IMG/VR virus record: IMGVR_UViG_3300045977_000498
Span: 1 to 49,996 of that record
Origin: a virus
Direction: 5' to 3' (one strand)
DNA length: 49,996 nt
Each line of letters opens with the position of its first letter. Positions within the stretch are counted from its first letter, which is position 1. The translations under genes and the position numbers were made by a program. Positions 1 to 35,235 of this stretch are shown piece by piece. A model generated the notes under the pieces. The model was not told where the DNA came from. It saw only the letters and a list, made by a program, of their open reading frames with translations, and did no database searches.

Positions 1-3000
1 GGACAACAACGACCCGTCCATCACCGACAGCAGCGCGAGCGAGAGCGTGTGCATCCGGCACCTGACGGCGGGCACGCCCACGGTGGACGCCGAGGCCGAT
101 CTGGACACGATGGATAGCGACGGCTTCACGCTCGATTGGACCACCGCCGACAGCACGGCGCGCGAGCACGGCTATCTGGCGATGGCCTCGGGGGCCGCCG
201 CCGCGCCCTCCCGGAAGGCCCTCACGCTCCTCGGGGTCAGTTGATGGCCACGGGCTCGATCGACTTCACCGTCAGCGAAACGGCCGGCGTGACCCGCGCC
301 GCCGGCGGCACGCTCGCCTCCCCTCGGTTCCCGTTTGCGATCCCGCTCCGCGCCGACGAGGCGAAGCTCAACACCAATCAGTTCCGGGTCATCGACACGT
401 CCACCAACCAGCCGCTGACACAGGTGGCCTTCCGCATGGCGGAGCTGCCGCTGGGGCATGCCAGCGGCGGCTGCGTGGGCGGCGCCCGCTGGGGCGACTA
501 CGGCAACACCGGCCATCGGGGCGCGGTGTGCCTGGTGGACTTCCTGCCCACGGTGGGCGCCAACGAAACGCGCACCTACCAGCTGCAGACCTCCGGCGGC
601 AGCGGCTCGACGGCGGGCGGCATCACCGTCGGCACGAGCAACCCCGACTACTACGAGATCAACACCGGCGCGATCACCGCGCGCGTGCCCCGGCGGGGCG
701 CGATGTCCGTCCTCGAGTTCCTACGCGAGAACAGCACCGGCTTCGCCGCGATCAATGGGGATGGCGGCGGGCTCTGGATGCAGGGCATTGCGGGCAGTCC
801 CCCGAGCCCCGGCACCGGCCCCGCCAACAATCAGGCGGGCGACTACGTCTCCAACCTGGACATCAGCGGCGATGGCGCCAGCAACGGCGGCGACCCGCTG
901 GAGATTGCCCGCCCCACCAAATACTTCACGTCGATCGAGTTCGCCAACTCGCAGCGCGTGCGGATCAAGATCGACACGATCCGCTGCGTCGGCGCCACCG
1001 GCGAGTTCAAGGGCATGAACCGGGACCATCAGGGCAGCGCCAGCGCCGTCCCGACCCCGCGCGCGGCCACGTGGGATGTCTACTTGGAGTTCTTCCGCAA
1101 CTCCGGCGCCATCCGGCGCCAGTTCATCTTCAAGTCCACCGGCGGCGGGGAGCCGCTGGCGAACGGCGGCGAGGCCAGTGATTGCGCGGTGCAGGGCTAC
1201 GGCGTCGATACCGTCACGACGTTCACCGGCTCCATGACGGCGCACACCCGCGACGAGACGGGTGCCACGAAGGTCATGTCGGTGACGAGCGCGACGGCCA
1301 AGACGCTGCGCCAGTTGCAGGCGCCGACGTCGTCCACCTACGGCATGAGCCTGCAGCGCACGGGCGACTTCACGCCGACCGGCACGCCGATCACCATGCT
1401 GGAAGCGTTCTACGCCGTCTCCAACGGCACGGTCACGCTGCTGGAGATCCCCTTCCAGTGGCGTGAGCGCCAGCCCATGGGGTTCTCCCATACGCCCGCG
1501 ACGGGGCGCCTGCGCTGGGAGATGCTGAACCCGAGCGAAGGCGATCTCCACCACATGAGCATCTTCCCGCACACGTACCACAACCGGAAGGGCCATCACT
1601 GGGCCTACCACGAAGACTGGCTGGTCCTCGTGCCGGGCACCCTCACCGCCACGCAGATGCGGGAGATGGTGCAGGCGCTCGCGGGCAAGCACGAGCTGAA
1701 GACCAACGGTGTGTACGCGGCCACCGCCAGCGAGACCGCCGCCGGGGCGCAGCAGCCCTCGCTGCTCGGCCAGGCCGACGCCAACCACTGGGATGATACG
1801 CGCGTCTGGGGGCGGATGCCGGTGAAGACCACGTCGCGCCCGGATCTGCTCGGCACCCCGGGCTTCTTGGGCCTCGCCGGGGGCAAACCCGGGAGCGTGT
1901 CGAAGTGGGACGACGTGGATGACCGCATGAACCAGTGGGCCGACGTCTGGCATGACGAGGCGGCGCGGTCCGGGCTGAGCGAGCCTGGCGACGCCTCATT
2001 CCGCACACTCCAGGCCAACTCCACCGAGCGGCAGTTCTGGAATGATCGCTATTTCGGCTGCCACGCCGCCTCCGGCGGCATCGGCCCCAACGACTACGAG
2101 TATGGCAGTTATCCGATCTATGCCTGGCTCCGCCGGAACGACCGGGGCGATTTCGCCATCGCGTGGGAAGCGACCACCCACTTCGCGACGGTGGACATCC
2201 TGCACAAGCTCCCGAACCTCGCCGGATGGGCCTGTGGGCAAGTCAGCGATATCGCCGCGCCGCCCGGCACCTTCCACTGGGGCGGGGGCAACGCCGGGCT
2301 GGAGTACCAGCAGGAGTGGGAATGCCTCTCCTTGATGTATCTCCTGACGGGGGAGTACCTGTATCTCGAAGCGGGCATCCACTGCCTCAACTTCTACAAC
2401 CACTGGCTCTACGGCTTCACACGCGGCTCGGGCCCGACGTTTGTCGGGCACTACCAGACCGATACCGGCACGGTCAACGGCAACGCGGTCACCTTTTCCA
2501 ATCCCTCGCGCTGGACCGGCACGCCGCAAGGCATTCCGACGGGCCGGCCCCCGCAGACGCGCATCGCGATCCGCCCATCGGATACCACCACGTTCATTTC
2601 AAGCAGCCCGGCTACCGTGTCCTCGTTCGGCCAGTTCCTGGTCATCACCGGCACCACCTGGGGCGCCCTCTCGGTCTCGGTGGGCACCGGGCCGGTCGAC
2701 GAGGGGTGGGGCGCGTCCGCAGTTCCGTTCTTCTTGGAGACCTCCGGGCGCTGGGTTGGCGCGGAGATCACGGTGGGGGTCTCCGTGTACCGCGTGACGA
2801 ATCTTTGGACGGCCACGAACGATCAGGTTCGGGTGACGGCCAATGGTAGTCAATCGGCGTGGTCGATTTCGACCAACGCCAGCGTCGGAGCCGTCACCTA
2901 CGCCAACAAGACCGATGTCCGGGTGCAAGTGGCCGGCGCGACGAAGACGGTCGATACGCACTACACCGTCTCCGGTTTGGGAACGACCACCGCCACGGTG

Positions 3001-3735
3001 ACGTTCACGGCGGGGAACATTCCCACAGCAGGCCAACTCGTCGTGATCCAGTCGTTTCAGGGTCGGCGCGTCCTGATCTCACCGAGCCCGGCCCCCGCGA
3101 TCAGCGGGCAGATCGCCACGATCACCTCCTTCCCTCGGCGCACGACGTTTGCGGGATACGTGGAATCCATCAGCGGATCCGTCGCGCAGGTGTCGTGGCA
3201 GTTCGGCACGCCTGCGTCCGGCACGTATAGCTTTGAGCCCATGCTGGTCCACTACAACTCCCCCCGCGCGTACACCTGGCCCCTCGCCGGCATCATCGGG
3301 CTGGCGCGCTGCCTGGGCGGCACCGTCGCGACGACGTATGCCACGGGGGGGAGCTACGATCTCTACCGACGCATTCACGACAGCAGCCGGTTCATGCTCT
3401 GGTGGGAACAGTCCTGTACGCATCCGTCGATGAGCCCGTCGATGGGCGGCATTGGCACCTGGGGCACGACGAATGGGACGGCGACCTTCACGAATCACTG
3501 GTATGGCGGGCATGGCGCCATCCATGCGACGGCCCACGAATATCCCACGATCCCCCTGCGCAACGCCCATCAGTTTGCGGAATCGCGGCGCGCCCTCGGC
3601 CTCGGCCCGAGCTTCTTCACGGCCGGCTTCGGCACCGACATCATCAATCTCCTCTATCGGTGGGGTTGCCATACCTGGATGGGCGTGGATGGCCTGAGCC
3701 CCATCACGTCCGGCACGCCCGCCTCCGGCGGCGGC
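1..3735. repeat. Direct repeat, copy 1 (start of unit genome)
   Basis: This stretch recurs at 46262-49996 with constant offset 46,261. By eye the copies agree apart from five substitutions between 3639 and 3657. The repeat starts inside one gene and is cut by the window end inside another, so it has no natural boundaries. It most likely reflects a circular or circularly permuted genome assembled past its own start; a physical terminal redundancy is the alternative. Confidence 0.9.
2..244 (+). CDS. 3' end of three-repeat fibre protein (partial)
   Basis: This is the last 80 codons of the 416-residue fibre-like protein that is complete at 45255-46505. The open frame enters from the left edge with no start, and its residues are the same as the C-terminus of that gene, including the DSDGFTLDW repeat signature. 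The stop overlaps the ATG of the adhesin gene as TGATG, indicating translational coupling. It is not an independent gene: the break is where the circular map was opened. Confidence 0.9.
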   Translation, partial: DNNDPSITDSSASESVCIRHLTAGTPTVDAEADLDTMDSDGFTLDWTTADSTAREHGYLAMASGAAAAPSRKALTLLGVS

Positions 3736-25419: not shown

Positions 25420-26664
25420 TCATGGACGAAGAGCACCACGACCACGTTCCTCCTGAGGAGGTTCAGTGAGGTAGTAGGTGTGCTGTCCGTCCTTAAGGTC
25501 GGGGCGCTCACCTATGAGGCGGGCGTGTAGGAGGGTTTCGATCGCCTGCCTGTACTGCATGCCGTTCATGTAGAACACAAGCCTGCGCAGTAGGTCTCCG
25601 CTCCTCATCTGTCCACCGTGTGCGCGAAGGATCTGGAGGATCCTGCTCTGGTCCACACCAATTGGCCGACTCCCAAGCCACTTGAAGTTCTTCAGCATAC
25701 TCTCCTCAAGGAAGCCCAGGAGCTTGTTCGCCGTGACCATGTCTTCCGTAGTGATGCGTATGCGTTCCTCACTGACGGCAATGACCATGGCGAGGCGCAG
25801 AAGGTGGTCGGGCTTGCGCTCGTGGTAGCCGGCCATCTTCTCATCCTCAGGCACGTTCTTCTTGCTCGCCGTATACCACATCTGATACCACAGCTTGTCC
25901 TGAGGAGTCTTGAAGTGCATCTCCCCGATCTCTTGCTTGCGGAGGGCGCGCAGCCAGTCAGTGAGGTTCTGAGGCTTGTCGCGAACGTCCGGTATGGGGA
26001 AGCAGCGAGGAGTGTCCTCCTGCACGACGAAGAGCAGACGGCTCATGAATCCTCCGCCGAAGGCGTCCTGGGGGATGGCTGTGATGAGCCAGTCTGGAGT
26101 GGAGGCACCAAGGAAAGTGAGACAGACGTTGTGGAGCTCCGTCTTCCCCGCGCCCTTCGTACTGATCTCCCACTTGTCTGGGTTGTCGAAGAGCGCCGTG
26201 AGGAGGGTGATGAGGCCCTCATTGTATTTCTGTTTGCCAAGGAAGACTGCAAGCTCTGGAGCATAGATAACACCTTCCGCTGGCTTGGCTGCCAGAAGCT
26301 GTTTGTCACCAACTGTAAGACTAGATAGTTCAGACGCGAGGGCTTCGGGTGTGATCTTATCTGCCAGGACATTGCACTCATCAAGTTCACGTAGGAGACC
26401 AAGTCCCAGGTTGAGCGCCGACGTCTTGCGACACTTCCCAGTGGGAGCAACCAGAATGACCTGATGGTTGGGGAAGACCTTGTAGTACCCTTTCTGGAAC
26501 CACGCTCGACGAGACAGTGTAGCTCCCAGTACTGCCGCCCCTGTGAAGAAGTGAAAGGCGGCGGGCGCTTCGCTCCAGTTCGTGTATTGGAGGTACGCAT
26601 GCAGGAATCCTTTCCTTGGTGCGATGTCCATGAAGGGTTCGTGAGGGAGGTCTGTGTCAGTCAT
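25420..26664 (-). CDS. Replicative helicase-like ATPase (DUF3987 type)
   Basis: 414 residues from ATG 26664, overlapping the dpdA stop by eight bases. The ATP-binding loop is VILVAPTGKCRKTSAL (residues 69-84), the variant Walker A of phage DUF3987 proteins. YAPELAVFLGKQKYNEGLIT and GGGFMSRLLFVVQ are the family's later conserved blocks. A winged-helix-like tail (LRAHGGQMRSGDLLRRLVFY) ends the protein. Expected role: unwinding or priming partner at the phage fork. Last gene of the replication operon. Confidence 0.78.
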   Translation of the reverse strand: MTDTDLPHEPFMDIAPRKGFLHAYLQYTNWSEAPAAFHFFTGAAVLGATLSRRAWFQKGYYKVFPNHQVILVAPTGKCRKTSALNLGLGLLRELDECNVLADKITPEALASELSSLTVGDKQLLAAKPAEGVIYAPELAVFLGKQKYNEGLITLLTALFDNPDKWEISTKGAGKTELHNVCLTFLGASTPDWLITAIPQDAFGGGFMSRLLFVVQEDTPRCFPIPDVRDKPQNLTDWLRALRKQEIGEMHFKTPQDKLWYQMWYTASKKNVPEDEKMAGYHERKPDHLLRLAMVIAVSEERIRITTEDMVTANKLLGFLEESMLKNFKWLGSRPIGVDQSRILQILRAHGGQMRSGDLLRRLVFYMNGMQYRQAIETLLHARLIGERPDLKDGQHTYYLTEPPQEERGRGALRP

Positions 26665-27355
26665 TCTGCGCGATCTCTCGGAAGCGATCCATGTTGAACC
26701 GCATCCGCTCCACAGTCTCTGTGTCGTAGACTGCTTCCATATCAATGCGTCCGTGCCCGCGGAGGTGGGCGTGAAGGTCCGCATGGTATATGGCAGCCTT
26801 GATCGGCTTGCTGGTGTCCACACTACTGTTCTGCAGGCGGAAGGACTTGAGGATCTCAAGTTCCTCCATGCTGTTCAGTCCGAGGAAGTGGTACCAGGTG
26901 TTGTCCCCGTCAAACCAGCCCCGAGCGGCGATGGCCTTGAGAATCTCCACGCGGGGAGTGCGGAAGGGGAAGCAGATGATCTCGCAGGCTTGGTCGCGGT
27001 ACCATCTGTAGAGGTCAACCATTTCCTGGACGTTCTTGCCTTGGAGGACGCCGGCGACTTCGCAGTCGAATCTTGCGGAAGCAAGGCGCCAAGCGTCGCG
27101 CGTACGGTCAGCATCTCCCATGAAGTCAGGTGCGATAACAACAGTAGGGCGGGCGAGACGAACAGCGCGTGTGAGCTGGCCAATCTCGAGAGGCTCTCCA
27201 AGCTCGAACATGCCGTTGTCCATGACACTTCCAGGCCCGTAGGCCGTTCGGTAAGCCTCACTTGACAACCACATGTGAGCAAGAGTGAAGTCATATTCCA
27301 TATGCTCGCGCAACTCTTTTACGTGCGCAGTCGGTATCTCGAATGAACATTTCAT
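26657..27355 (-). CDS. dpdA: DpdA-like DNA 7-deazaguanine transglycosylase
   Basis: 232 residues. ATG 27355 overlaps the LAGLIDADG gene stop (ATGA) with AAAGGTGG upstream. TGT-like motifs are in order: YGPGSVMDNGMFELGEP (D46; cf. the substrate-pocket D-S/N-G of TGT), VVIAPDFMGDADRTRD (D77, D81) and VAGVLQGKNVQEMVD. The zinc-binding Cys/His cluster of tRNA enzymes is absent, as in short phage DpdA proteins. It would swap guanine in DNA for preQ0 or a derivative. The context of folE, queD, queE and queC in the same operon strongly supports this. The catalytic nucleophile cannot be assigned by eye. Confidence 0.75.
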   Translation of the reverse strand: MKCSFEIPTAHVKELREHMEYDFTLAHMWLSSEAYRTAYGPGSVMDNGMFELGEPLEIGQLTRAVRLARPTVVIAPDFMGDADRTRDAWRLASARFDCEVAGVLQGKNVQEMVDLYRWYRDQACEIICFPFRTPRVEILKAIAARGWFDGDNTWYHFLGLNSMEELEILKSFRLQNSSVDTSKPIKAAIYHADLHAHLRGHGRIDMEAVYDTETVERMRFNMDRFREIAQND

Positions 27356-27801
27356 GCCCACCTTTCTGGCCTCCCTCTGTTGCCTCGGTTTATTGCTTGA
27401 AGAATGCCTCCAAGCGTGATCAGTTTCGCCTGGTGTTCTTGGTCGAGCGATCCCTTGACTCCTCTGGGTTTGATCATGGAGCACATCTCTATGACCAGGT
27501 CTAGTTGGTACTTCTTGATGACTAGGTACTGGTGTACTGCTCTACCAACGATGGGGATGTCTTGCGCTGAGTAGAGTCGCCACTGCATTATTGGTTTCGA
27601 CCTGGGAGATTGATTCTTGTATGGGCCCGCCTTGCTTCCTGGATATCGCTCAACTATCCAGTTGATGAGGCGTTCATCCGTATTGGACACAACGATGTAG
27701 GGCATTGGCAGGTTTTGTGAGCCTCTGATGGTGGCAGACACCGTACCCTCCCCATCAATGAGGGCCGCAAGCCTCGCATGGTCAGTCTCTTCACTTGTCA
27801 T
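27352..27801 (-). CDS. LAGLIDADG homing endonuclease
   Basis: 149 residues. ATG 27801 overlaps the polymerase stop (TAATG). Single dodecapeptide motif ARLAALIDGEGTVSAT at residues 9-24, with the acidic D and E for metal binding; one motif implies a homodimer. Free-standing, between polymerase and dpdA; it would cut an allele lacking it and spread by repair. It may bring about exchange of the flanking polymerase or dpdA genes. Confidence 0.85.
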   Translation of the reverse strand: MTSEETDHARLAALIDGEGTVSATIRGSQNLPMPYIVVSNTDERLINWIVERYPGSKAGPYKNQSPRSKPIMQWRLYSAQDIPIVGRAVHQYLVIKKYQLDLVIEMCSMIKPRGVKGSLDQEHQAKLITLGGILQAINRGNRGRPERWA

Positions 27802-29018
27802 TATCTCTTTGCCTCCCCCCAGTTCTGGAGGACCTTGACGTCTGTTGGCGTCCGCAGGCCTGGAAGGCGTTCCTTCTCGAAGTGCTGACGGATGATGGCC
27901 ACGTGCTCTTCCAGGCCCTCCTCGGGCACTTCCATTCCCATGGCGTCATGGTGGTCGAAGACGGGGAACACCTTGCCGCGCAGACGTGGGTCGTCGTGGA
28001 TGTCGACGTGGATTTGCATGAGGAGGTCGTGTGCCGTGCTCTGGGGGATCATGTTCTGTGTCTGACGCTCCCGCTCAGAGTCACTTTGTTCAATGAAATA
28101 CCTACGGCGCCCGAAGGGGTTAGCAATGTACTTGTTCTTGGCAGAAAATATATTGTTGATCGCCATCCACTCCCAGAGACGTGAGAATCGATGATGGTGT
28201 CTGTCAAAGATATCCTGGGCGTCTCGAAGAGTGATGCTAGTGTGTTGCTCAGCCATGCTTTCAGGTCCTCTTCCGTACGGAAGCCCAAAGTTGATGAACT
28301 TTGCTTGGAACCTTTCTTCCCCAGATATTTCCTCAGGGCTCTTTCGGAAAATTTCTGCTGCGGTTTCACGGTGACTGTCGCCTCCTTTCTCCATGATCGC
28401 GAGGCCCACTGGGTCCTGTGACTGATGCCACATGATGCGCAGCTCTATCTGCGATAAGTCAGCCACAACAAGACGCATCCCAGAAGGAGCCACAAAAATG
28501 GACCGAGCCTTCCCAGGAGGGTACGTATGTACGTGGCACGAGTATCGTCCGGTTTCCGTGCCGTGCATCTTCCACTCTGGGTGGTATCTGTCGACTTCGT
28601 CGAGTGTGAGGCTGAAGTAGGTTGACGCAAGTTTCCCAGCCCTCCTTGCATCGAGGATCATGCAGCCAATCTTGTAGATGGCAGGATCGAAGCTCCTCAA
28701 CATGCGGCGGGTCTTGTCTGGATCTTCATGAATGCCACACACCTTCATGATGGCGTCGTCGTCAGTTGTAGGCGTGGCCTTGCCACGCTTACGCTGCACG
28801 TCCATGCCCAGCTCATCGTACAGGAAGGCGGCGACCTGCTGGGAAGAGCGAGGGTTCAGGCCTGGCTTGACCTTCTGTAGGTCTGCCTCAATGGCAGCAC
28901 CCTTCGCCAGCTCTTCGACGTACATGTCTGTCATGCGCTTCCTGTCGACAAGCATACCTCGCTCTTTCATATGCAGCACGGCCTCGGACGCCCGCATGAC
29001 AATCTCAGCGAGCCTCAT
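27801..29018 (-). CDS. Family A DNA polymerase, polymerase domain only
   Basis: 405 residues. ATG 29018 overlaps the small Cys-rich gene (ATGA). Motif A is VVADLSQIELR (D187). Motif B is RFQAKFINFGLPYG (R236, K240, Y248). RQTQNMIPQSTAHDLL matches the conserved helix before motif C, which is HHDAMGMEV (D358). The second acidic residue usual in motif C (HDE) is Ala here. No 3'-5' exonuclease domain: that function is in the separate upstream UDG-exonuclease gene. Length fits thumb, palm and fingers only. Copies the phage genome. Confidence 0.95.
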   Translation of the reverse strand: MRLAEIVMRASEAVLHMKERGMLVDRKRMTDMYVEELAKGAAIEADLQKVKPGLNPRSSQQVAAFLYDELGMDVQRKRGKATPTTDDDAIMKVCGIHEDPDKTRRMLRSFDPAIYKIGCMILDARRAGKLASTYFSLTLDEVDRYHPEWKMHGTETGRYSCHVHTYPPGKARSIFVAPSGMRLVVADLSQIELRIMWHQSQDPVGLAIMEKGGDSHRETAAEIFRKSPEEISGEERFQAKFINFGLPYGRGPESMAEQHTSITLRDAQDIFDRHHHRFSRLWEWMAINNIFSAKNKYIANPFGRRRYFIEQSDSERERQTQNMIPQSTAHDLLMQIHVDIHDDPRLRGKVFPVFDHHDAMGMEVPEEGLEEHVAIIRQHFEKERLPGLRTPTDVKVLQNWGEAKR

Positions 29019-29149
29019 CCTGCCCGCACCTCATGCTCGTCACGACACCACTGACACTCCTTGACCTTGTGCACTCGGCACACTGCTGTGTGGTCAGGAT
29101 GGCACAGCCTGCTGCACGCCGGACACAGCCACGTGAGGTCCTCGATCAT
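29015..29149 (-). CDS. 44-residue Cys-rich zinc-finger peptide
   Basis: ATG 29149 overlaps the UDG-exonuclease stop (ATGA), and its TGA overlaps the polymerase ATG (ATGA), so the three genes are chained. The peptide has LCPACSRLCHPDH, then VCRVH and ECQWC: six Cys and several His fit for one or two zinc sites. Being locked between the two halves of the replicative polymerase suggests it may bridge them or contact DNA; no homologue recognised. Confidence 0.7.
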   Translation of the reverse strand: MIEDLTWLCPACSRLCHPDHTAVCRVHKVKECQWCRDEHEVRAG

Positions 29150-30189
29150 ATGAGGTTCAGCTCCCTCAGCTCAATGAGCTGTTTGTGGAGGGCCATGAGG
29201 GTGACGTCCACATCCCGGCAGTTGTACCAGGCTTTGCGGACAGTGATCTGGTCCTTGTAGTAGGAGTACGGGGAGTAGATTGAGGCGAGGAAGGCTAGGT
29301 CATGAGGCAGATGCGGGTACAGCAGGTGGCTGTACAAGAGGCTGTTGTGAATTGGTGAGGGACAAGGGAAGCCGAAGCGTCTTAGGTGGTAGGCGTCGAA
29401 GATCGAGTCATGCGTGCCGATGCCCTTGGTGTTCTTGAAGAACCAGAACAGCCAGTGCACGTACTCAGGCTCATCCACTGGCACTGAGATGGCGAGGCGC
29501 TCCTGGTAGCACAGGCCTACCAGATCAATGGCAGCAAAACCAAAGTCAGTCTCAATATCCACGACAGTAAGAGGGTGCTGGATGCACTCATGGACGAAGT
29601 CTTTCACCTCCGGGATGGTGGGATTTGTAATATACAGCACGTCGGGTTCCTTGTAGCCTGGCGACTTGCTCAGCTCCTTCACTCGACAGAAGTCGTGGAT
29701 AGTGACGTCCCACATCCTGCGTTGCCGCATTATGAACGCAGGATGATACGCAGCAAAAGCCTGATACACAGTGTCGCCAACCTGAATCGGGAAATGGGAT
29801 CCCCGCCAGTCGCTGATTGTACCTGCAACGAACTGTTGGAGGGGAGTATTTCCGAGGAGTAGGACCAGGTTAGGATCCACGTTTCGAATTCGGGCGTGAA
29901 GGTCGGAGGTCGCCGCCTTGAGATTCGCAAGAGCGATGTTATTCCCTGGCGGCCTGTGTGAAACAACGTTGTCGATGAAACATGAGCCTCTTGTGATGCC
30001 TGCCCGTCCGAGCCATGCGTCCAGAATTCTTCCAGCTCCTCCCGAGAAGGGGACTCCACTTTGATCCTCCTCTGCACCAGGGGCTTCGCCGAGGATCATG
30101 ATACGCGGACGGCTTGCAGCCCCTATGCCATGCACGTGCCTCGTGCCAGGCCAGTTATTTGCTACGCAGGTGCAGGATGTATCTGTCAA
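29146..30189 (-). CDS. Uracil-DNA glycosylase-3'-5' exonuclease fusion
   Basis: 347 residues from TTG 30189, chosen for AAGGTGG just upstream; GTG 30258 lies deep inside the previous gene. Residues 1-190 are a family 4/5-type UDG: ILGEAPGAEEDQSGVPFSGG (motif A) and AYHPAFIMR (motif B, H149). N-terminal Cys are CxC and the usual CRPP is HRPP, so the iron-sulphur cluster may be incomplete. Residues 205-347 are a DnaQ/Pol I-like exonuclease: VVDIETD (Exo I), THDSIFDAYHLRRFG (Exo II), YNCRDVD (Exo III). It presumably supplies proofreading to the separate polymerase; SPO1-type polymerases also carry a UDG-like domain. Confidence 0.87.
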   Translation of the reverse strand: MTDTSCTCVANNWPGTRHVHGIGAASRPRIMILGEAPGAEEDQSGVPFSGGAGRILDAWLGRAGITRGSCFIDNVVSHRPPGNNIALANLKAATSDLHARIRNVDPNLVLLLGNTPLQQFVAGTISDWRGSHFPIQVGDTVYQAFAAYHPAFIMRQRRMWDVTIHDFCRVKELSKSPGYKEPDVLYITNPTIPEVKDFVHECIQHPLTVVDIETDFGFAAIDLVGLCYQERLAISVPVDEPEYVHWLFWFFKNTKGIGTHDSIFDAYHLRRFGFPCPSPIHNSLLYSHLLYPHLPHDLAFLASIYSPYSYYKDQITVRKAWYNCRDVDVTLMALHKQLIELRELNLI

Positions 30190-30433
30190 GATACCACCTT
30201 GCTTTCTCAAGATCAGCCACTCTGTCCTCCTTGTCTCGGCACACGTACTTGATGACACACCCGAGGTGGAAGGGAAGGTCCCATGCCTCGATCAGGTCGA
30301 TGGGTTCGACGGAAGGTCCTTTGTAGTGCTCGGAGTGAGGAGCCGCTCCCTTCGAGCCCGGATTGCTGCCAGGTGCGCCGGAATACTCTCTCCAGGGACC
30401 TGTGGCAGGATCTGGTCCAGAAGTGTCTCGCAC
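30155..30433 (-). CDS. DUF3310 family protein
   Basis: 92 residues from GTG 30433 (AGAAGG upstream). The C-terminal domain is the DUF3310 signature: HSEHYKGPSVEPIDLIEAW, then FHLGCVIKYVCRDK and DLEKARWYLDRYI. The frame stays open up to 30628, but that part is better explained as the neighbouring gene in another frame, which has far better codon use. DUF3310 proteins are common in phages near replication genes; a nucleotide-related role is suspected, not proven. Overlaps the UDG gene by 35 bases. Confidence 0.72.
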   Translation of the reverse strand: MRDTSGPDPATGPWREYSGAPGSNPGSKGAAPHSEHYKGPSVEPIDLIEAWDLPFHLGCVIKYVCRDKEDRVADLEKARWYLDRYILHLRSK

Positions 30434-30624: not shown

Positions 30625-31191
30625 TCATTCCTCCCCATTCCCGTTGCCGTTCCTTGCAAGCGAGAAGAACTCTGCTCTTGCCTCAGGCTTCTCTAGAAAC
30701 ACTCCTCTCAATGCGCTGGTGGAGACGTATCCGGCCGTCTTGACTCCGCGCATGGTCATACAGAGGTGCCGACCCTTGATGTGGCAGCCAGCTCCAAGGA
30801 GCTTGTACCGCTTCATCAAGCTGTCCACAATGTCCACCGTGATACGCTCTTGCAGAGCAAGCCGACGACAGGTGTGTTCCACGAGTCGTGGGATCTTGCT
30901 GAGGCCGGGCACATACCCCTTCCTCTTGGGTATGTACCCGACCGCCACGTACATCTCGACTGGCAGCAAGTGGTGTGGGCAGAAGCCCCACACGTGGTGA
31001 GAGTTGTGGACGATCATCTCATCGTACCCGTTGTGAGGGAAGCGCGTCCACTTCACACGGGGAGGATGGAGGACCTCTGAGAACATGCGCGCCACCCGAC
31101 GAGGAGTGTCCTTGAAGTCTGGGTGACGAATGTCAACGCCCAGACCCTCCAGCACGCTCAGCACGCCGATGGCGATCAGTTTCTGGTTCAC
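30625..31191 (-). CDS. folE: GTP cyclohydrolase I
   Basis: 188 residues. Converts GTP to 7,8-dihydroneopterin triphosphate, the first step of preQ0 synthesis. Zinc ligands are visible at C71 and H74 in FCPHHLLPVEMYVAVGY and C144 in HLCMTMRGVKT; the GLSKIPRLVE block is typical. Length is near the usual single-domain enzyme. ATG 31191 overlaps the preceding small zinc-ribbon gene (ATGA). Lies in one operon with queE, queD and queC, indicating a DNA-modification rather than folate role. Confidence 0.95.
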   Translation of the reverse strand: MNQKLIAIGVLSVLEGLGVDIRHPDFKDTPRRVARMFSEVLHPPRVKWTRFPHNGYDEMIVHNSHHVWGFCPHHLLPVEMYVAVGYIPKRKGYVPGLSKIPRLVEHTCRRLALQERITVDIVDSLMKRYKLLGAGCHIKGRHLCMTMRGVKTAGYVSTSALRGVFLEKPEARAEFFSLARNGNGNGEE

Positions 31192-31340
31192 TCCGCTTCG
31201 TCGCCTCCCTCTTCCTCTTCCTCACAGTCCATGCAGGATATCTTCGCCATGGCGATGATGGCTTCGTCCTTCTCCTCCACAGAAATGGTACCCATTTCGT
31301 GGCCGCAGTGTTCGCACTCTAGAGGGAGGTCTTTGAGCAT
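31188..31340 (-). CDS. 50-residue zinc ribbon with acidic tail
   Basis: ATG 31340 follows AAAGGA at good spacing. Two Cys pairs, CEHCG and CMDC, separated by about 25 residues form a zinc ribbon; the C-terminus is a run of Glu/Asp. Wedged between queE and folE with overlap into folE. Unknown function; may be an adaptor or anti-host protein. Confidence 0.65.
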   Translation of the reverse strand: MLKDLPLECEHCGHEMGTISVEEKDEAIIAMAKISCMDCEEEEEGGDEAE

Positions 31341-31354
31341 GTTTGTCCTTTCGC

Positions 31355-32011
31355 TCACTTGATGCTGAGGACCTTGTGAAGTTGGACTGTCAAGCGCAGC
31401 CATGGATTTGCCTCGACAAGCCTGCGTACCTTGTGCACGTTGGGCCAGTCGACATTCGTGTGGAAGTTGGCTGCTGACAGGAAGATGGGGCCTGAGAAGT
31501 TGAACCGGTACCTCTCAACCTCTTCCATGCTGAACTCGTCGTCGACGATGAACTTCAGTTCCTTCGCCAGCCTCAGGACCGCAGCTGCCACTCTCCTTTC
31601 TCGTTTGGGACTCACGACTAGGTGGTCCACGTATGGCAACCAGTCTGGGAGCAGGGAGCCGTTCGACTCCATGTGCACGCGGAAGTTGTTGGCGTGGAGC
31701 TGGCCGATGAGCTCTCCAAGCTTGTGGGCGGTTGGCTCCCCACCAGTGAGGCACGCCGTACGCACCTTGCTGCGCAGGCAGATGTTGATGATCTCCTCTA
31801 CGTCCACCTTCCTGTACGCCAGCTTCCACACCCTTCCCTCACGGTCCTTGAAGTCCTCGTGGATGGTGTCTGGCTGATCACACCACACGCACGCCAGGTT
31901 GCATCCTGCCACACGTATGAATGTCATAGGAGTGCCGAGGAAGACACCTTCACCCTGAAGGCTGGTGAAGATTTCGTTCACAGCGATTTGTCGTCTAGAC
32001 TCGTCCGTCAT
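31355..32011 (-). CDS. queE: 7-carboxy-7-deazaguanine synthase
   Basis: 218 residues from ATG 32011; the frame is open upstream but there it is a shadow of queD. Radical SAM enzyme turning carboxytetrahydropterin into 7-carboxy-7-deazaguanine. The cluster CNLACVWC (C37, C41, C44) has the radical-SAM CX3CX2C spacing, preceded by EIFTSLQGEGVFLGTP and followed by ACLTGGEPTAH, all hallmarks of QueE. Overlaps queD by 17 bases. Confidence 0.94.
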   Translation of the reverse strand: MTDESRRQIAVNEIFTSLQGEGVFLGTPMTFIRVAGCNLACVWCDQPDTIHEDFKDREGRVWKLAYRKVDVEEIINICLRSKVRTACLTGGEPTAHKLGELIGQLHANNFRVHMESNGSLLPDWLPYVDHLVVSPKRERRVAAAVLRLAKELKFIVDDEFSMEEVERYRFNFSGPIFLSAANFHTNVDWPNVHKVRRLVEANPWLRLTVQLHKVLSIK

Positions 32012-32372
32012 GGTCGACCCAACAGGTTGCCGTCTCGAAGAGTCTGAGGTGAACGAGCTCGACTGGATCAGCGAACTGACACTTCTCCAGCTGCGCCCAC
32101 ATCCACTGCACGATGTACTCACTGGTGGCGTCCTGGACATCGAGGACGTCGTTGATGAACTGGTGGTCGAGGCGGTCGTGGATCGCGTGCTTGAGAGCGT
32201 CTCCCACGGCTTGGAAGTCCACGATTGAGTTGGACTTCTCAGAGACGGGACCCTCGTAGGTGGCCTCCACTCGCCATGTGTGGCCGTGAAGCCTGTGACA
32301 GGGGCTGTTCTTCCACGCACTGCTCTGCAGCTGGTGTGCTGCGTCGAACGTGATGGCTTTCGTGACTTTCAT
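31995..32372 (-). CDS. queD: 6-carboxytetrahydropterin synthase
   Basis: 125 residues from ATG 32372; GGGGGAGG is close upstream, and ATGA overlap with the preceding small gene supports this start over ATG 32396. Converts dihydroneopterin triphosphate to 6-carboxytetrahydropterin. Zinc His are H13 (FDAAHQL), H29 and H31 (CHRLHGHTW), with C25 as the catalytic Cys. DHQFINDV and later TSEYIVQWMW match the family. Second step of the preQ0 route. Confidence 0.94.
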   Translation of the reverse strand: MKVTKAITFDAAHQLQSSAWKNSPCHRLHGHTWRVEATYEGPVSEKSNSIVDFQAVGDALKHAIHDRLDHQFINDVLDVQDATSEYIVQWMWAQLEKCQFADPVELVHLRLFETATCWVDHDGRV

Positions 32373-32599
32373 TCCTCCCCCCTGAAGTGAAGGCATGTGG
32401 CAGAGATCCTCTGAGTCGTCCTATTCCTCTCGAGGCCAAGCAAGAGGAAGAAACGAGGACGGCCGTCGGCTCTCTGCCACATGCCTTGTGAGCACCAGAC
32501 TAGCGTGCCACTCTTGACTCGGCAGAAGTCGCAGTCAGTGCAGTTCCTCTCACCGCGGAGCGTACCCCGTGACCTTGTTTCTGTAGACTGGCTTGCCAT
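32369..32599 (-). CDS. Small Cys-rich protein
   Basis: Up to 76 residues from ATG 32599; the start is uncertain because no clear ribosome site precedes it and it overlaps the DUF669-like gene by 50 bases. Cys pattern NCTDCDFCR, then WCSQG and ATCLHF, suggests a zinc or metal site. The stop overlaps the queD ATG (ATGA). Function unknown. Confidence 0.55.
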   Translation of the reverse strand: MASQSTETRSRGTLRGERNCTDCDFCRVKSGTLVWCSQGMWQRADGRPRFFLLLGLERNRTTQRISATCLHFRGEE

Positions 32600-33706: not shown

Positions 33707-34533
33707 ACCATCCTTTCCAGGAGCTCTTCCTCGTGGCTGAGCTCCTTCCGCCGGTAACCCATGCCCTCCGCCAGTGTGACGCGGTCGGGGTTGAGGCACA
33801 GCATGCGATAGGGGCAGGTGCCCCAGTTAAAGCACGAGTGGGGTGAGAGCGGCCAGCGGTTCTGGTCGTAGGCGTCAACGATCTCCTGGACGACCTGTGT
33901 GAGCTCGTCTTGGAAGCGGTTCAGTTCATGCTCATCAAGCACAACAAAGTCCCTGACGAGCGCCGGGTACTTCGTCGTCCGTATGATATCGACAAGAGCT
34001 CCCACAGGACGCCTGCCGAGTCGACGCATAGCCCACGTGTATCCACGCACCTGATCGTCCAACTGGAAGCGTCCCACCAGATCGCTAGGTACCTGGCTCG
34101 TGAACTTGCGCTCAACTGTCCACTCCTTCTCATCGTACGTGGCATAGCCGTCGAGCTCTCCGACGTACCACACATGCCGCTTGGTGCGGCCGCTGGTGCT
34201 GACGACGACGCCCATGTCCACCTTCACGGGTGTGCCTGTCATGATGTACTTGAGAGGTTCCTCAGCGTTCTTGATGAAGTACTCTGTGAGGGCATTCGTC
34301 AGGAGCGGATGCTGTGCGAGCTCTGGGTCCTGCACGAGCAGGTCTGCCTTGGACTTGTCTTTCACCCACTCGTCCACTAGTCTGTGGCCAAGGCGTCCGC
34401 GAGCGAAGGGCTCGGGCGTCACGCTGGGCTCCAGGCCCTCCACAGCTGTCCAGTAGTACTTGCGGTGGCACTGCTGGAAGAACAGCCTACTGCTGTGACT
34501 GATCAGCAAGTGCGGGATCTGAGATTCCTGCAT
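33703..34533 (-). CDS. Cas4/RecB-like PD-(D/E)XK nuclease with Fe-S cysteines
   Basis: 276 residues. Nuclease core: GRLGHRLVDEW (H50), VGELDGYA (D128), WTVERKFTS (E141, K143), and FQLDDQVRGYTWAM as the QxxxY-like motif. Cys22 near the N-terminus and Cys 234, 240 and 246 (CFNWGTCPYRMLC) form the four-Cys iron-sulphur arrangement of Cas4/AddB exonucleases. Likely resects ends for recombination or processes replication intermediates. It overlaps the queC end by 47 bases. Confidence 0.85.
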   Translation of the reverse strand: MQESQIPHLLISHSSRLFFQQCHRKYYWTAVEGLEPSVTPEPFARGRLGHRLVDEWVKDKSKADLLVQDPELAQHPLLTNALTEYFIKNAEEPLKYIMTGTPVKVDMGVVVSTSGRTKRHVWYVGELDGYATYDEKEWTVERKFTSQVPSDLVGRFQLDDQVRGYTWAMRRLGRRPVGALVDIIRTTKYPALVRDFVVLDEHELNRFQDELTQVVQEIVDAYDQNRWPLSPHSCFNWGTCPYRMLCLNPDRVTLAEGMGYRRKELSHEEELLERMV

Positions 34534-35185
34534 CGGCGAAACCTTTCTCCCTCACTTTGCATGAGGGGCATTCCATGCACGGCTTCTCGCCTCCGGCGTA
34601 GCAGGACCATGTCAGCTCGAGTGGCGCTCCGAGCTTCTGGCCGAACTTGATCACGTCTCCCTTCGACATATACACGATCGGGGCGAGGATGGAGATTGGA
34701 TGCCGCAGCCCTAGGCGAAGCGCTCCCTCCATGGCGTTGAGGAACGGCGGCCGGCAGTCTGGGTAGCCGCTGAAGTCCACGGCATTCCATCCGCCAGCGA
34801 GGTAGTGGATACGTCGTGCGTCAGCGATGCCGCCCAGCATGGCGAGCATGACGATGTTCCTGCCAGGTACGTACGTGTTGCTGACAGCGTAGCCGGCCTG
34901 GTCCTGCACCGTGCCTGCAGCGTCCTGCTGGTTGAATGCGCCGAGAGGCAGGAGGGCGCTGGAGCCCCGAAGGTACTCGAAGTTGACCTTGATGACTTCG
35001 GGCTTCGGGAACCCACCCACCTCGCAGAGGGTCTGGGCGTGTGCCAGCTCTTTGGCGTGCGACTGGCCGTACTGGAAGTGCACTGTGCTGACGACCTCGA
35101 AGTCGTAGTGCCTGCAGTACCAGAGGGTGGTCGCTGAATCCAGCCCACCACTCACGAGGACGATTGTCTTCTTGTCGTCGCTCAA
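34487..35185 (-). CDS. queC: 7-cyano-7-deazaguanine (preQ0) synthase
   Basis: 232 residues from TTG 35185, chosen for AAAAAGGAG six bases upstream; GTG 35224 is an alternative. ATP-dependent conversion of carboxydeazaguanine to preQ0. PP-loop IVLVSGGLDSAT (12-17 core), VPGRNIVMLAM, AVDFSGYPDCRPPFL and the zinc cluster WSCYAGGEKPCMECPSC (C195, C203, C206, C209) are all present. A strong hairpin at 35236-35265 precedes it. Confidence 0.95.
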   Translation of the reverse strand: MSDDKKTIVLVSGGLDSATTLWYCRHYDFEVVSTVHFQYGQSHAKELAHAQTLCEVGGFPKPEVIKVNFEYLRGSSALLPLGAFNQQDAAGTVQDQAGYAVSNTYVPGRNIVMLAMLGGIADARRIHYLAGGWNAVDFSGYPDCRPPFLNAMEGALRLGLRHPISILAPIVYMSKGDVIKFGQKLGAPLELTWSCYAGGEKPCMECPSCKVREKGFADAGISDPALADQSQQ

Positions 35186-35235
35186 CGTTGGCTCCTTTTT
35201 GAACTCTTGAGAACCTTGTGTCACTTGGTGGCATC

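Follow-up and report, generated by a model that had tools for sequence, protein, structure and literature searches.

Phage DNA polymerase I proteins (PolA) that contain a uracil-DNA glycosylase (UDG) domain are already known, as in phage PaBG (PMC7412058). Phage replicase genes that are broken into pieces have also been described. In the T4-type phages 25 and 44RR, gene 43 is divided into two neighbouring genes, and the two products from phage 25, gp43A and gp43B, co-purify with polymerase activity (PMC2988022), which indicates that the halves of a split phage polymerase can be active. In the OM43 phages MEP401/402 (PMC10580990), PolA is encoded by a pair of ORFs that flank a small ORF of unknown function. 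No paper on splitting of this kind in UDG-containing PolA was found in the literature searched.

The locus discussed here lies in a stretch of 49,996 nucleotides (referred to as the window), which consists of the 46,261-bp genome of a soil phage followed by a repeat of its first 3.7 kb, as would be expected if the genome is circular or terminally redundant. Its features are listed in Table 1, together with those of related loci. The original prediction, that the exonuclease is fused to a UDG domain and encoded apart from the PolA core, is confirmed by the ORFs, Pfam matches and motifs described below, and both of the ATGA overlaps by which a 44-residue Cys-rich gene was said to be joined to its neighbours can be read in the window. 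Identical products are encoded by three IMG/VR contigs, and a relative with 70% identity has the same division between exonuclease and polymerase, which rules out an assembly error. ATGA-type overlaps form the junction of many genes in this operon, and junctions so routine give no reason to infer a complex.

Table 1. Positions of features in the window and in related loci.
Feature	Position	Strand	Remarks
UDG-exonuclease gene	29146..30189 (TTG start)	minus	frame open to GTG at 30258; the alternative start is GTG (29146..30258), and TTG is that of the original prediction
Family-4-type uracil-DNA glycosylase domain	29716..30129	minus	P0001 residues 44-181
DEDDy 3'-5' exonuclease domain	29149..29637	minus	P0001 residues about 208-370
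ATGA overlap, UDG-exonuclease stop / peptide start	29146..29149	minus	
44-aa Cys/His-rich peptide gene	29015..29149	minus	
ATGA overlap, peptide stop / polymerase start	29015..29018	minus	found in L005 too
Family-A DNA polymerase core without exonuclease	27801..29018	minus	405 aa
LAGLIDADG-like ORF	27352-27801	minus	weak Pfam match, E = 0.0056; PHROG 5046, 3.3e-14
DpdA-like gene	26657-27355	minus	tblastn to annotated DpdA of Flavobacterium phage immuto
FolE gene	30625-31191	minus	by Pfam
Small Cys-rich (CxxC) gene	31188-31403	minus	71 aa; counterpart in L005
QueE gene	~31355-32002	minus	
QueD gene	31995-32372	minus	
Small Cys-rich (CxxC) gene	32369-32599	minus	76 aa; counterpart in L005
QueC gene	34487-35224	minus	by Pfam
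Group I intron	L025:3209-3456		Rfam RF00028, 56.7 bits
DUF1937 insert	L079:5011-5445		
DUF7768 insert	L096:5010-5522		
DUF4406 insert	L056:5635-5991		
Interrupted gene without insert	L090:3977-6528		cut between Exo II and Exo III
Interrupted gene of phage Kuura	L008 3953-7357		cut between Exo II and Exo III
NrdR-type zinc-ribbon ORF	MW202554 (L009) 2878-3138		PF22811, 3.4e-15

The UDG domain is matched by Pfam PF03167 (E = 2.3e-26) and by TIGR00758 (1.1e-30), yet the latter match lies under the curated cut-off of that model. The AlphaFold2 model of the 347-aa product has a mean pLDDT of 95 and also matches 9qhs, the solved structure of the UDG-containing family-A polymerase of phage phiLo. Its top PDB matches in Foldseek are family-4 UDGs (4zbx, 1l9g, 1vk2), with the Klenow exonuclease lower in the list. 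A structure prediction showing no UDG domain had been named as grounds for dropping the proposal; the Pfam match, the model and the Foldseek matches all show one. Both of the family-4 motifs, GEAPG and HP, are present, as GEAPGAEED and HPAFIMR. The family-4 pattern includes four cysteines, which hold an Fe-S cluster. This set is not complete here: the N-terminal CxC is kept, while a His occupies the expected position of the third Cys. The domain thus keeps the main motifs but may only bind DNA.

The exonuclease has all of the DEDDy motifs (DxE, FD and YxxxD, as DIET, SIFD and YNCRD). The loci of the relatives were chosen largely with the peptide EAPGAEE, and the conservation of this motif within the set is therefore no evidence. 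The exonuclease motifs and the fused or split state played no part in the choice, and the exonuclease D, E, F/Y-D, Y and D are conserved in 43-44 of the 44 alignment rows. In the AlphaFold2 model the final exonuclease helix is intact, at residues 319-343 of 347.

The polymerase matches Pfam PF00476 (E = 1.1e-50). From its residue 10 onwards it aligns with Taq residues 437-830, and by extrapolation it starts at approximately Taq residue 428, directly past the exonuclease-like domain. In the PHROG 17 model a single chain carries UDG, exonuclease and polymerase, and the two products of the window fall end to end on it, at 474-827 and 838-1233. When the two chains are joined and aligned to the fused relatives L033 and L034, 0 residues are lost at the junction. 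All the features of the PHROG 17 type of replicase are found, namely a UDG N-terminal to the exonuclease, the DEDDy motifs and the family-A core, except that in place of one polypeptide there are two genes, as seen in the three contigs and again in the L005 type.

The fused form, with the same domain order, is the rule, being found in Microcystis phage Mel-JY34, vir526, uncultured phages and most IMG/VR loci. A one-chain version of the UDG-exonuclease and PolA core thus exists elsewhere. The nearest type to the window (L005, L029 and L030, 70% identical) is split, and the next nearest loci with a complete gene (L033, L034, L106 and L111) are all fused. The gene order QueE-FolE-pol-DpdA is common to the window and these four fused loci, and the clade of these four has the two split types as its sister group in the tree, with an SH-aLRT of 100. 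In this tree, which is unrooted, it is the nested position of the split types, together with the rarity of the split between exonuclease and polymerase, that argues for fission over fusion. The simplest reading is that the locus results from in-place fission of a continuous gene at a domain boundary, and that the split is derived.

The most likely product of such an in-place fission is a two-chain replicase. We put at about 0.8 the probability that a single UDG-exonuclease-PolA replicase is encoded here as two chains by fission at the border between exonuclease and polymerase, with the chains reassociating and the peptide located at the boundary. The observed part of this explanation comprises the domain content, the collinearity across the junction, the conservation of gene order and the existence of fused sisters. 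The continuous gene would have broken in the lineage that the window phage shares with its relative of 70% identity, at a point between the last exonuclease helix and the beginning of the polymerase core, at the cost of no catalytic residue. As the cut follows a complete helix, the break should be well tolerated. The two chains would be made side by side via coupled translation, and would reassociate non-covalently to rebuild the fused enzyme, the separate subunit still proofreading, while the Cys/His-rich peptide would be a small metal-binding protein at the new gene boundary, co-translated with the polymerase. The separate exonuclease subunit could also have acquired a role of its own. The split itself is real and derived, and it is plausible on functional grounds.

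A survey was made of 63 distinct loci with a complete polymerase. The gene is fused in 44 of them and interrupted in the other 19, at three recurrent sites: within the exonuclease, where motif Exo II is separated from Exo III (7/63), at the border between exonuclease and polymerase (3/63), and within the polymerase ahead of motif A, termed site C (9/63). The tree requires at least 12 changes between the fused and split labels. A cut between Exo II and Exo III means that the active site would have to come from two chains. It is seen in an isolated phage, Caulobacter phage Kuura (L008), and in L090, which has no insert. In L039 and L059 the insert is a long block of genes. Other inserts encode DUF1937, DUF7768 and DUF4406 proteins; these three, at different split sites, weakly cross-match one another. 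In one of the nine polymerase-internal cases, L025, the interruption is a group I intron accompanied by an HNH ORF and not a protein split, so the number of true protein splits is below 19. HNH ORFs also lie within the interruptions of L049 and L054. Introns were not found in L049, L054 or L098 in lower-threshold searches.

The break in the window could have been made by a mobile element, either a homing endonuclease or an intron, which later disappeared. Such a mechanism has been documented for gene 43 of the T4-type phages (PMC2988022), the survey includes the intron and HNH ORFs just described, and in the window a LAGLIDADG-like ORF immediately follows the polymerase. This ORF is however at the far end of the polymerase, outside the break, and no homologue was found at the corresponding place in the split L005. 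The break itself contains only the 44-aa ORF, which has no match to any endonuclease family, and no intron was detected in the window. We therefore regard a lost mobile element as a rather doubtful origin for the break. An intron at the window junction was also considered as a candidate in its own right and was rejected: there was no Rfam match at the gathering threshold and no relevant one even with E allowed up to 1, in the same search that detected the L025 intron.

The 44-aa peptide has a single known type of homologue, in L005, L029 and L030, with 52% identity. All 6 Cys and all 4 His are kept. The substitution pattern, with a dN of 0.45 and a dS of 1.08, suggests selection on the protein, although it evolves about twice as fast as the neighbouring genes. 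Searches of Pfam, PHROGs and NCBIfam gave nothing credible, the best match among PDB sequences was RLP24 (E = 0.26), Foldseek gave no match, and tblastn against phages gave only matches with E near 10. The AlphaFold2 confidence of 67 is too low for a fold to be named. Two further small CxxC genes are present in the same operon, so that neither the location of the peptide gene nor its overlaps are by themselves a reason to infer a complex. In L005 a DUF1508-like ORF (PF07411, 5.1e-5) stands between the exonuclease and the peptide, and the ATGA overlap with the polymerase is kept, which ties the peptide to the polymerase and not to both genes.

It was originally proposed that the three products form a three-subunit replicase, in which the peptide would stand in for the lost covalent linker by bridging or stabilizing the chains of exonuclease and polymerase. 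The peptide is present in both split phage types with its Cys and His intact and its overlap with the polymerase maintained, and a search of the records of the fused sisters, fragments among them, did not find it. These observations speak for the proposal. Against it stand the rapid change of the peptide and the ORF that separates it from the exonuclease in L005, and the overlaps are only what is usual in the operon. Other split members of the family have unrelated inserts or, like L090, none. Nor was any phage found with the same three parts in one protein, the fused junctions and linkers that were inspected having no Cys-rich segment. Nothing other than adjacency, and conservation in two types of phage, supports the three-subunit proposal, which we consider unlikely.

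A distant phage, MW202554, has the same split between exonuclease and polymerase, and the gap there contains an NrdR-type zinc-ribbon ORF, which would favour a bridging role for such proteins. This ribbon is however from a different family than the 44-aa peptide. Its ORF also lacks a start codon close to where the exonuclease gene stops, and so may result from a frameshift or from faulty assembly. A strong Shine-Dalgarno-like AAGGAGG precedes the polymerase gene in this phage. On the widest form of the argument, breaks between exonuclease and polymerase occurred repeatedly and small metal-binding proteins became bridging subunits, with the window lineage and MW202554 representing two independent three-chain inventions. 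Independence of the two splits rests on SH-aLRT support, with MW202554 on a long branch. Scanning viral sequences with the MW202554 protein gave no match, and matches in a genome-contig scan mostly covered the UDG part alone. We regard two such inventions as very improbable.

The peptide could instead be free-standing and physically unconnected to the replicase, perhaps as a regulator that binds nucleic acids; it would sit there because boundaries in packed operons collect small genes. The two further CxxC genes fit this, as does the DUF1508-like ORF that entered the same gap in L005, and unrelated genes have likewise gathered at both of the remaining split sites. The overlap of the peptide gene with the polymerase is nevertheless constant in both phage types, which differ by this insertion and by the endonuclease-like ORF downstream. 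On balance we lean slightly towards a free-standing peptide.

The window also encodes a 7-deazaguanine/preQ0 modification set (Table 1), and DpdA is immediately downstream of the polymerase in 8/8 members of the clade in the tree. Given this position of DpdA, and FolE, QueE, QueD and QueC in the window, these phages probably have 7-deazaguanine-modified DNA.

A natural two-chain family-A replicase that exists beside fused orthologues in the same gene order offers a system in which to study how far proofreading depends on covalent linkage. More generally, a polymerase family that has been interrupted many times in only three places opens the fission of an essential enzyme to comparative study.

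Compared with known systems, the one-chain proteins of PHROG 17, the DNA polymerase I of PaBG (PMC7412058) and the phiLo polymerase (PDB 9qhs) have the same domains in the same order as the window, but in one chain instead of two with a small gene between. The gp43A/gp43B pair is of family B and has an endonuclease or an untranslated spacer at the break, whereas the window has a family-A enzyme that is cut at the border between exonuclease and polymerase, with a conserved 44-aa gene. In MEP401/402 the cut falls inside the polymerase domain, like the cuts at site C, and the available part of that report does not mention a UDG domain (PMC10580990). Caulobacter phage Kuura and its relatives (L008, L070, L079, L096 and L102) resemble the window in having separate UDG-exonuclease and polymerase genes with ORFs inserted, but their cut is inside the exonuclease domain, so that Exo III stays on the polymerase chain.
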